The notes under the pieces are model-generated. The model did no database searches and had not been told where the DNA came from. It worked only from the letters and a program-made list of their open reading frames with translations. A stretch of 64,000 nucleotides of DNA from Nitrosarchaeum koreense MY1. GTDB lineage: Archaea; Thermoproteota; Nitrososphaeria; Nitrososphaerales; Nitrosopumilaceae. The stretch is taken from NCBI RefSeq assembly GCF_000220175.1, contig NZ_AFPU01000001.1, positions 1,461,512-1,525,511 on the forward strand, read 5' to 3'. Positions 39,822-45,226 of the stretch are shown in pieces; position 1 is the stretch's first letter; every line of letters begins with the position of its first letter. Position numbers and translations under genes: made by a program.

Positions 39822-40121
39822 ATGCCAGTAGGAATTATTCCAGACATCAGCGAACAAATGTGTATCGGATGCGCACTATGTGTAGAAATCTGTACAACAT
39901 TAGGACCAGATGTACTTAGAGTAAAACCAGTCGAAGGCTGGAAGAGAGGAAAAGCATTTGTCTTTTACCCAGAAAGATGCATCTCCGATGGAGCATGTAT
40001 CGGTGTTTGCCCAACAAAGGCAATCTTTTGGATGAGACCAATGGACTTTACCGTTGGACAACCAGTTCCACTCTACAAGAACTCAGTCTTCGTTAAAGGT
40101 TGGACCGAATTAATCGATTAG
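39822..40121 (+). CDS. Ferredoxin with an Asp in place of one cluster cysteine
   Basis: 99 residues, an electron carrier of the two-cluster type. Cluster I motif: C14, C17, C20, C24 (CIGCALCVEICTT). Cluster II reads C53-x2-D56-x2-C59-x3-C63-P, with Asp where the second Cys should be. This CxxDxxC pattern is a known hallmark of an Asp-ligated [4Fe-4S] or a [3Fe-4S] cluster. The C-terminal 30 residues are an extension. The gene is GC-richer than its neighbours, with a consistent choice of C-ending codons, suggesting high expression. It has its own promoter region with two repeat sites. Confidence 0.93.
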   Translation: MPVGIIPDISEQMCIGCALCVEICTTLGPDVLRVKPVEGWKRGKAFVFYPERCISDGACIGVCPTKAIFWMRPMDFTVGQPVPLYKNSVFVKGWTELID

Positions 40122-41618: not shown

Positions 41619-43367
41619 TTATCTATTTTTTCTAGAAACACGATATACTGGATAATCAGATTCAGATGAGGAAAACGTGTTTTCTATTTTTTTAAATATA
41701 TAGTCGTCAAAATTTTTAGCACTTTTATAGAATTCTTCGCCGATTACTAAGCCATTTGCAGGAGCAAGTCTATTTATTTTTGCACATCGATTTACAGTAT
41801 TTCCAAATATATCATTGATAGAGGATGTAGATGTTTTTGCAATTCTAACTATTCCATAGGTTGAACTAGTTCTGTAATCAAAAATAGGTAATTTGTGATT
41901 TTCAAGTTTTTTTACAATATCATCATGTAACTCTCCTAATGCAAGACAACAATCTAGGCATTTTTTTAATGTAGATTCTTCTTCTGAATGTATAACCGGA
42001 AAATAAAACAATAATGCATCCCCAATATTTTTTATTACAATTCCACCAAAATTTCTCACAGTAGAAGCAATAGAATTAAGAAAAATTTTATAAAATTCAC
42101 TAGTTTGTGATTCGGATAAATTAAGAGTAATTTTTGTTGAATTCATAATATCAACCATACATACACAATATTGCTCACTATGATCAGAAAATTGCAATAA
42201 AATATCTTCTTGTTGTTTTATAACATCTTCTTTTTCTTTAATTTCAATTAATGATTTCTGAAGCTTTTCAGTCATTAAATCAAATGCTTGAGATAGCTCA
42301 CCGATTTCATCTTTAGTTGTGATATTTGTTCGAACATTAAAGTCACCACTTGCAACTTTGTTTGCAGCATTTTTTAATTTAATTAGAGGTCGTGACATAG
42401 ATTTTGAAATTAGAAATGCCACAATTGTCATTATTATAGTGATCACTAAACCAGTTTGAAAAATTCTATTTTGGAGTATTATAACAGGCTGAATTGTTTC
42501 TGATTCGTCAATTTCCGCAAGTAAAACAAATCCTAAATCATTAGCACAGTATGATGATCCATAAATATTGATTTTTCTATAATCCAAATAAATTCCTGAA
42601 AAATCTTCTGATTCCCTAAAACATTTTTGGACAGGAACGGTATCAACTTTTTGTTTAAAGATAGCGTTTTCTATGAATCTAGATTCAGATAACATCAAGA
42701 ACCCGTCACTTACGATATAAACTTCGCCTGTTTTTCCTAAACCACTTGAATCAGTCAAAATATTATCTAATGATTCAGTTCTCATTCTAGAGATAACTAC
42801 TCCAATTGGTTCATCATTTTTTTTATCATCTGGAGCAAAAATTGGAGAAACTATAATCATCTTTTTACCAGTTGCAGTTGGCTCAAAATCCACTATTGGT
42901 TTTTTTAATCCTTTTTGAAATAGTGGATCTTGAAGAAAATTATTATCAGTTAGTTTACCTAGTGAAAAGTAAACATTACCATTTGCACCAATAATTTTTA
43001 CATCCTCAAAACCTATCGAAAACCCAACTAATGTTTGAAATGCTTGGATTTGAGTAAGGAAGTCTCTACGTTTGATTTCTCTTTCTTTATGCAAATCATC
43101 TTCTGAAACTTGGTTTAAATCATTAACAAGAATTTTTATCATTGGATCATTTGCTAAAATTTGATTTTGATCAATTCGTGATTCAAAAAGAAGTCTAATA
43201 GCATTACCACGTGTAGCTGATTCGCCTAATAATAGATCGCTAGCTCTTTCTATTAGAATTTGTTCAGCATAGTTAAAGCTCAAATAAGCTGTAATCAAAA
43301 GTGTAATTATAGATACTATAATTACTAAAAATATCAATTTTTTATCTATACTAAAGGAAATTTGCAA
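41619..43367 (-). CDS. Cache-HAMP-class III nucleotidyl cyclase membrane sensor
   Basis: 582 residues. Membrane helix 1 (about 10-33) and helix 2 (about 303-324, FQTGLVITIIMTIVAFLI) flank a dCache-type sensor domain outside the cell. HAMP follows at about 325-380 (SRPLIKLKNAANKVASGDFN), then a coiled coil and a class III cyclase domain with metal Asp in CVCMVDIMNSTKI and GGIVIKNIGDALLFYFP. It would make cAMP or another cyclic nucleotide in response to an external signal. Whether the purine-specifying residues are canonical was not determined. Confidence 0.88.
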   Translation of the reverse strand: MQISFSIDKKLIFLVIIVSIITLLITAYLSFNYAEQILIERASDLLLGESATRGNAIRLLFESRIDQNQILANDPMIKILVNDLNQVSEDDLHKEREIKRRDFLTQIQAFQTLVGFSIGFEDVKIIGANGNVYFSLGKLTDNNFLQDPLFQKGLKKPIVDFEPTATGKKMIIVSPIFAPDDKKNDEPIGVVISRMRTESLDNILTDSSGLGKTGEVYIVSDGFLMLSESRFIENAIFKQKVDTVPVQKCFRESEDFSGIYLDYRKINIYGSSYCANDLGFVLLAEIDESETIQPVIILQNRIFQTGLVITIIMTIVAFLISKSMSRPLIKLKNAANKVASGDFNVRTNITTKDEIGELSQAFDLMTEKLQKSLIEIKEKEDVIKQQEDILLQFSDHSEQYCVCMVDIMNSTKITLNLSESQTSEFYKIFLNSIASTVRNFGGIVIKNIGDALLFYFPVIHSEEESTLKKCLDCCLALGELHDDIVKKLENHKLPIFDYRTSSTYGIVRIAKTSTSSINDIFGNTVNRCAKINRLAPANGLVIGEEFYKSAKNFDDYIFKKIENTFSSSESDYPVYRVSRKNR

Positions 43368-43510: not shown

Positions 43511-44665
43511 TTAATTTTTAGAAATTTTAAATTTAGAACCCCATTTACTCTTTTGATTTTTTGTTGGCTTTTTTGATAAATTATCTAACATTTCATATGT
43601 AATTGTAAATCCATTGCCTACCATTGTGGTGTCCTTATCAAACTCACTTTTGTTAGGCACAAATTCATCCGGTAAATCCTTGATTTTTTTAGTTTTAATA
43701 TCAAATAACCTAATTTCCTTACCATTTTCAAGTTTGATAAGTGCATCATTACTAAGACTTTGAATTGAGAAATTTTCAAAAAATCTTATCATTCCACCTT
43801 TTTTTAATTTAATTTTAGAATCATAAGTGATTTTACTTCCATAAAATAAAATTTCTCGTGCACTAATTTCAACATCATCTTCCAAATTAAGAACCATAAT
43901 AATATCAGCCTCAAGAGAAACTGTATTAATTATATTTTCTGCAATTATTTTTCCATTTGGTGCAGATACAAAAGTACGTTGTTCTTGAGTTTTAAAAATT
44001 CCAACTCTCCCATCTGAATCTTGAATTTTATATTTCCGACCAAAAATATTTCCAACTACAATATCACCATTATCTGCAATTACTCTAGCACCATTTTCAA
44101 TTTTGTATTTATTTTCAAGTGGATTAATAAATTTAAAATCTCCTTTTGTCAAATGAATATTTGTTCTAAATTCTTCAGTCCAAGATGGACTTGTTATATT
44201 TCCCTGCATAATAATAGGACCATCATAAGTTAGATTGCCTGCCATAAAATTTCCTTTGATTGAAAGTATACCATTAGCTTTTCTTTCAAGTTCAATTTCT
44301 CCAAGAGATTTTGAACCAAATAATTTAATGCCGGTTGAATTTGTTCTATTAAGTTCTGCTGTCCACTCTTCTGCTAATTTCATTTCTTTGAATAACTCTT
44401 GGCCTAAAATTTGGTTTTTTCTTCGTATGTCCTCTTCTGAATCACCAGAATAAACTCTAGAATTTCTAATTTTTTCAAGATCAGTTTCAGGATATTTTTT
44501 ACCAATTTTGAGATCTTCATATGCTTGTTTGATTTTTATGAATTGATCATTTTCTCCTCCTTTATCAGAATGATAAAGCAATGCTAATCTTCGGAATGCA
44601 TTACGAATTTCGTGCTCAGTTGAGCCTTCAAGAATTCCCAATATGTCATAGTTACTCTCCACCAT
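43511..44665 (-). CDS. J-domain protein with HSD motif fused to a beta-repeat domain
   Basis: 384 residues. Residues 5-65 form a DnaJ J-domain (YDILGILEGSTEHEIRNAFR; FIKIKQAYEDLK) whose HPD loop reads H32-S33-D34. From about residue 110 a long region alternates strands with an identical feel (ANGILSIKGNFMAGNLTYDG; IIAENIINTVSLEADIIMVL), like a bactofilin-type or right-handed beta-helix. The combination would recruit or mimic Hsp70 binding at a structural scaffold. No similar fusion is familiar to me. The C-terminus is basic. Confidence 0.75.
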   Translation of the reverse strand: MVESNYDILGILEGSTEHEIRNAFRRLALLYHSDKGGENDQFIKIKQAYEDLKIGKKYPETDLEKIRNSRVYSGDSEEDIRRKNQILGQELFKEMKLAEEWTAELNRTNSTGIKLFGSKSLGEIELERKANGILSIKGNFMAGNLTYDGPIIMQGNITSPSWTEEFRTNIHLTKGDFKFINPLENKYKIENGARVIADNGDIVVGNIFGRKYKIQDSDGRVGIFKTQEQRTFVSAPNGKIIAENIINTVSLEADIIMVLNLEDDVEISAREILFYGSKITYDSKIKLKKGGMIRFFENFSIQSLSNDALIKLENGKEIRLFDIKTKKIKDLPDEFVPNKSEFDKDTTMVGNGFTITYEMLDNLSKKPTKNQKSKWGSKFKISKN

Positions 44666-44755
44666 TTTCTTTCAGTTTTTGGTTATTCTTTTCATATTTC
44701 CTATACTTTTAGTTTATTACGATATAAAATGTTGAGAATTTTCATTAAATGAAAT

Positions 44756-45226
44756 CTATATCATGTATTTTAAAAATCCAGTAAAACTATCAGAGGGAGT
44801 TACTTGAACAGCTTTTAGTTGACCAAGCTTCGAAAGATATTGTCTTTTATCATAATAGTTGAAAGTTCCTTCTTTATCAGGATATATTACAATAGTGTCT
44901 TTTTGTCCAGGTTCTAATAGATCAGTTTGTATGTTGAAACCATCAATGTATAATCTATGATGCTGATTCCCTCTATTTTCGACAGTAAGAACATAAGCAA
45001 AACTAATTCTCATAATTAATGTTGAATTGTTATCTTCAGATGTACCAGAAATGCCAATTAGTTTTATTTCATCATCAATATCAATAAAGGCAACAGTTTG
45101 TTCAATTTTTTCTGGTCAAAAAATTTGAACGTGTCTTACATTTCCTTGACCTATTACACCAATAATTGCTGCAAATCCCATAATTCCTATCATCAATATA
45201 ATAAGAACAAAGAATTTGTCTTTCAT
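44756..45226 (-). pseudogene. Anchored cupredoxin-like protein interrupted by an in-frame TGA
   Basis: A continuous frame runs from ATG 45226 (MKDKFFVLIILMIGIMGFAA, a membrane or signal segment) to the stop at 44756 except for TGA at 45118-45116, codon 37, between IF and PEKIEQ. The downstream part reads as an intact cupredoxin-like fold (RLYIDGFNIQTDLLEPGQKD; KEGTFNYYDKRQYL). An 85-residue piece from the Met at 45013 could still be made. The TGA differs from TGG (Trp) by one base. The usual copper Cys after YY is Asp. The alternatives are a sequencing error or a true nonsense mutation. Confidence 0.7.

Follow-up and report, generated by a model that had tools for sequence, protein, structure and literature searches.

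We describe a Nitrosopumilaceae protein, here referred to as J-HSD, in which a J-domain recognised both by sequence and by predicted fold has HSD or HAD fixed in place of the HPD motif, keeps its DnaK-contact residues in a genome that encodes DnaK, and is followed by a predicted beta-solenoid domain. Our preferred reading, held tentatively, is that this may be a Nitrosopumilaceae-specific type IV J-protein, a DnaK recruiter that is built on a solenoid scaffold and whose stimulation of the ATPase is weakened, a mechanism that we infer. J-proteins with an altered HPD are already a known kind (PMC13254874); the novelty lies in combining a clade-wide replacement of Pro only with a predicted beta-solenoid partner and with HPD paralogues that permit comparison. 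No publication on J-HSD, or on any fusion of a J-domain with a beta-solenoid, turned up in the literature searches. The gene lies in the window, that is, the whole 64,000-nucleotide stretch of Nitrosarchaeum koreense MY1 DNA that was analysed, and the host genome is 1.6 Mb in a single contig. The features are listed below.

43511..44665, minus strand: whole gene for the J-HSD/solenoid protein, 384 aa (open frame with ATG start; orthologues full-length)
44507..44656, minus strand: J-domain, residues 4-53, helices 5-9, 17-31 and 39-53 (PF00226, 6.4e-11; PDB J-domains by sequence and fold)
44564..44572, minus strand: His32-Ser33-Asp34 (CAT TCT GAT) replacing HPD (sequence; HSD in 133 and HAD in 10 of 143 distinct proteins)
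44345..44437, minus strand: long linker helix, residues 77-107, with the invariant Trp101 (AlphaFold2 model; conservation)
43706..44335, minus strand: predicted beta-solenoid, residues 111-320 (AlphaFold2 pLDDT 84.9 / 87.6; weak Foldseek matches)
43577..43630, minus strand: C-terminal conserved motif TMVGxGFTITYxMLDN, residues 346-363 (alignment; found in the HPD paralogues too)
44721..44729, minus strand: candidate TATA-like element TTTTATATC, about 55-64 bases 5' of the ATG (weak, from sequence reading only)

The J-domain and its HSD motif

The N-terminus of J-HSD was assigned to Pfam DnaJ (PF00226, 6.4e-11, residues 6-53) with 42.6 bits against a curated cut-off of 27.8, and the same model was matched by all 37 aligned family members, while the Pfam scan of the window protein returned nothing besides DnaJ. 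The solved structures nearest by sequence are the J-domains of DNAJA1, DnaJ and others. In the AlphaFold2 model the helix II-loop-helix III hairpin is present (helices 17-31 and 39-53) and the J-domain superimposes on 2lo1 with an rmsd of 1.2 over 50 columns, the HSD loop being modelled less surely (mean pLDDT 63 for residues 31-40). Neither of the traits of class A/B JDPs (G/F region, C-terminal client-binding domains) was found, and the full-length DnaJ models scored far under their cut-off. The preliminary description had read the N-terminus as a J-domain with Ser for the Pro of HPD, and the codons CAT TCT GAT at 44572-44564 confirmed this reading; with a recognisable J-domain and a replaced HPD, the protein shows the sequence traits by which type IV JDPs have been defined (PMC13254874).

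Conservation and selection at the motif

The replacement is not a local mutation. The 37 aligned orthologues, which share 44-97% identity with the window protein over almost its full length, never vary in the His, the Asp and the Gly-Gly that follows, and they have Ser or Ala between His and Asp. The loci collected gave 149 distinct family proteins in total, comprising 133 with HSD, 10 with HAD, 3 with HPD (two counted directly and the third, L187, read by eye) and 3 fragments without the motif. Whether HSD is common to the orthologues, as the preliminary description had asked, could be answered directly, since all 143 distinct motif-readable proteins of the main Nitrosopumilaceae clade carry Ser or Ala and none carries Pro; HSD/HAD is fixed across this clade. 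The Ser33 codon is always TCN (TCA 58, TCT 57, TCC 11, TCG 7), so that Pro is one T-to-C transition away, and Ala can be reached from TCN only by a transversion. In a tree built from 35 representatives, at least five changes between Ser and Ala, counted without regard to direction, are needed at this position, and none to Pro inside the clade; as a rough argument, this makes a neutral site hard to accept. Phosphorylation of Ser33 was considered as the key to the motif and rejected: because HAD arises several times on the tree, Ser33 is not required.

The residues of E. coli DnaJ reported to contact DnaK are Y25, K26, H33, D35 and F47 (PMC13012618), which in our own alignment correspond to F24, R25, H32, D34 and F42 of J-HSD. 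Across 43 representatives below 85% identity, F24, R25, H32 and D34 are each kept in 43/43 and F42 in 41/43. The J-domain is also the most constrained part of the protein, with a dN/dS of 0.069, while the solenoid has 0.138, the linker 0.145 and the tail 0.18 (NG86, 120 pairs; rough values, as dS is near 1). The J-domain had earlier been called degenerate, a term that proved too strong because, the Pro aside, the surface that contacts Hsp70 is complete and hardly varies.

HPD paralogues in two genomes

Two genomes, G498 and G560, each carry the HSD gene together with divergent HPD homologues (L181 and L182 in G498; L187/L216 in G560). Among the 250 family genomes searched with the profile of these homologues, no others yielded strong matches of this HPD type.

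L181:3157-4179: HPD paralogue, G498
L182:494-1720: HPD paralogue, G498
L216, minus strand: HPD paralogue, ORF of 352 aa, the same as L187, G560

The HPD paralogues share the order of parts seen in J-HSD (J-domain, solenoid, C-terminal TMVGxGF motif) and fall into a single group whose branch is very long (2.87 changes/site), as placed by a quick tree with midpoint root and no outgroup. HPD-carrying orthologues, which the preliminary description had named as evidence against its proposal, were therefore represented only in part: HPD does occur in the family, in three divergent paralogues from two genomes that keep HSD, but in no orthologue. HPD probably preceded HSD in this family, as the likely ancestral motif from which HSD was derived, since HPD is, to our knowledge, near-universal in J-domains. 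Both HPD paralogues of G498 adjoin a secreted-looking protein of ~1050 aa.

DnaK and the possible roles of the J-domain

The genome encodes one Hsp70, beside a canonical DnaJ; this Hsp70 has an ordinary bacterial-type DnaK sequence and keeps the docking-site stretches VVRIINEPTAA and VLLDVTPL, and by our own numbering we take the docking residues R167 and L391-D393 to lie within these stretches. Four J-domain proteins are encoded in all; HPD is present in DnaJ, in DnaJ-Fer and in a membrane-anchored J-protein, leaving J-HSD alone without it, and HPD was likewise present in 20/20 other J-proteins from related genera. Small tail-anchored HPD J-proteins (~145-161 aa, with a C-terminal membrane segment) occur in several other Nitrosopumilaceae genera (L141-L146, L149, L155) and were not found in the genome of the window. 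A swap between these and J-HSD among genera was considered and is not strict, as g17 and g19 have both. Genera g6 and g9 have, as read by eye, fusions of an HPD J-domain with TPR-like repeats (L151, L152).

We favour, tentatively, a role in which the J-domain would dock on the single cellular DnaK and, lacking the Pro, would not hold its His and Asp in the activating orientation, so that ATPase stimulation would be weak or absent and the protein would act as a tether or recruiter, bringing DnaK to whatever the C-terminal beta-solenoid may bind or build. In simulations of a P34A J-domain, helix II runs into the motif and the fixed orientation of H33 and D35 is lost (PMC13012618), and recruitment without stimulation has been named as an open possibility for altered-HPD J-proteins (PMC13254874). 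Against this recruiter role, the kept residues of the J-face could serve another partner, and the J-domain/solenoid architecture does not require loss of the Pro, because there are HPD paralogues that share it. It is possible, if doubtful, that the J-domain was selected to bind but not fire, the change from Pro to Ser or Ala making it a DnaK tether on the solenoid, with an ancestral HPD paralogue in two genomes.

The same conservation could point to a working co-chaperone, in which HSD/HAD is tolerated and DnaK receives normal stimulation on behalf of a particular client that the solenoid holds. The other Hsp70-face residues are all kept in a strongly constrained J-domain, the HPD paralogues have the same architecture, and HSD might work because the change of HPD to AAA does not fully abolish stimulation in some systems, where such a J-domain stays partly active (PMC13012618). 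We consider this somewhat unlikely, however, given that the Pro was never regained though one transition off, that P34A is predicted to misorient the His and Asp (PMC13012618), and that the sole tolerated replacement seems to be HPE, according to a review (PMC13254874).

Independence from Hsp70, with the J fold serving as a protein-protein interface (for example in J-J pairing like that of Pam16/Pam18) and the solenoid as the working part, has precedents in Pam16 and DNAJB13, whose J-domains have an altered HPD and a structural or regulatory role (PMC13254874). Such a fold would not need the His, the Asp and the basic R25 of helix II, all of which are invariant in J-HSD, and Pam16 has lost the motif altogether (DKE in yeast; PMC13254874); this role is therefore unlikely.

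Among known proteins, those closest to J-HSD include the type IV JDPs or pseudo-JDPs (Pam16, DNAJB13, Plasmodium type IV; PMC13254874), with which it shares a J-domain with an altered HPD. Unlike these examples, J-HSD has changed the Pro only, with His and Asp invariant, holds this change fixed across an entire archaeal clade and has a predicted beta-solenoid as partner. The thaumarchaeal DnaJ-Fer (PMC3564930), present as one copy in this genome (L138), is likewise a lineage-specific J-domain fusion of the same archaea, but has HPD and a ferredoxin domain. A recent review asks whether altered-HPD J-proteins inhibit Hsp70, recruit it without stimulating it or miss it, and whether the alteration is accident or selection (PMC13254874). 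J-HSD offers a natural test of J-domain action without the normal switch: a change of the Pro only is held against one-base reversion beside a single DnaK, the three HPD J-proteins of the genome provide built-in controls, and there are HPD paralogues with the same arrangement of domains, so that small soluble proteins would allow a direct test of the question.

The predicted beta-solenoid

Structure prediction, proposed earlier as a check, gave a beta-solenoid-like fold both for the whole protein (AlphaFold2 with the family alignment, mean pLDDT 84.9, pTM 0.72) and for residues 109-345 alone (pLDDT 87.6, pTM 0.85), the predicted C-terminal part consisting of the long helix 77-107 and then a run of strands, with helical elements at both ends of the solenoid. 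Foldseek searches of the PDB yielded weak matches, mostly to beta-helix/solenoid proteins (HpmA, tapirin, pectate lyase, gamma carbonic anhydrase), the top one being HpmA with a TM of 0.32 and none having an E-value <0.001; matches to viral structures were likewise weak. The profile of the solenoid domain had no match among PDB sequences, and no Pfam family matched this domain in the window protein. Because the folds match weakly and the profiles match no family, we regard the C-terminal domain as, by prediction, a beta-solenoid with no known family. The domain is also a family of its own, for which the libraries searched offered neither a name nor a relative. The FapA beta solenoid (PF03961) gave weak Pfam matches in 4/37 members (best 0.0031), too weak for membership. 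The repeated short strands of the preliminary description are borne out by the predicted solenoid structure but not by the sequence, in which no significant period of hydrophobicity (strongest of 40 lags: 19, with z 2.3) and, in the window protein, no Pfam repeat family was found.

The domain had also been described as bactofilin-like, and a self-assembling bactofilin-like scaffold capped by the J-domain would accord with a predicted beta-solenoid in a soluble protein for which no membrane segment was found (top 19-residue hydropathy 1.35). With bactofilin (PF04519) the domain shares a beta-solenoid or beta-helix, here by prediction. Pfam gave no match, an hhalign comparison with nine proteins of the phylum that carry the bactofilin domain gave a profile-profile probability of 11.6% over 34 columns, and no bactofilin fold was among the best 50 Foldseek PDB matches listed. 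In addition, J-HSD differs in its longer solenoid region, in the helical elements that flank it on both sides and in its J-domain. Membership of PF04519 was accordingly rejected, the bactofilin-like label is not supported, and such a scaffold is very unlikely. Bactofilin-domain proteins, some of them many-repeat, occur in other families of the phylum (L161-L180), and no match to this domain was seen in the genome of the window.

Distribution and gene neighbourhood

J-HSD was present in 92/120 Nitrosopumilaceae genomes that are >=90% complete and in 13/20 genera. Among 398 genomes across the phylum it was confined to this family, bar one marginal match (E = 9e-4 over 84 positions), which as a candidate distant homologue was taken as noise. 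Carriage by viruses was rejected, as viral contigs yielded no relative. The gene is widespread but dispensable at the genus level, because it is absent from the listed g9 members and several other genera.

The J-HSD gene seems to stand alone. Its upstream genes differ between genera, and its commonest neighbour is a convergent gene for a 99-aa ferredoxin (39822-40121 in the window), placed tail-to-tail in 42/59 long loci. This gene either adjoins the J-HSD gene or, in some species, is separated from it by genes that vary with the species, among them cyclase, PII and cupredoxin genes, and it is missing in several deep lineages. A functional partner could not be derived from gene order, as this often separated, convergent ferredoxin is the sole broadly kept neighbour; we read the proximity as old gene order and not as function. 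The ferredoxin gene, together with the beta-helices SufB and SufD (PMC12284271), could suggest an iron-sulphur assembly factor that combines a J-domain with a SufB/SufD-like beta-helix. This is extremely improbable, however, since the window protein has no cysteine (family median zero) and the ferredoxin gene is convergent, forms no operon and has inserted genes between in many species. A SufB/SufD-like Fe-S scaffold was rejected on the further ground that no match to one appeared in Pfam, in PDB sequences or among the listed PDB folds, and that no cysteine is conserved.

Two other neighbours in the window were read by eye. The gene at 41619-43367 has the look of a membrane sensor with HAMP and class III nucleotide-cyclase domains, and in other species its homologue, in either orientation, sits beside the J-HSD gene or at a distance of a few kb. 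Upstream and on the same strand, an 85-aa ORF (44756-45013) is cupredoxin-like and is kept in 3/59 long loci.
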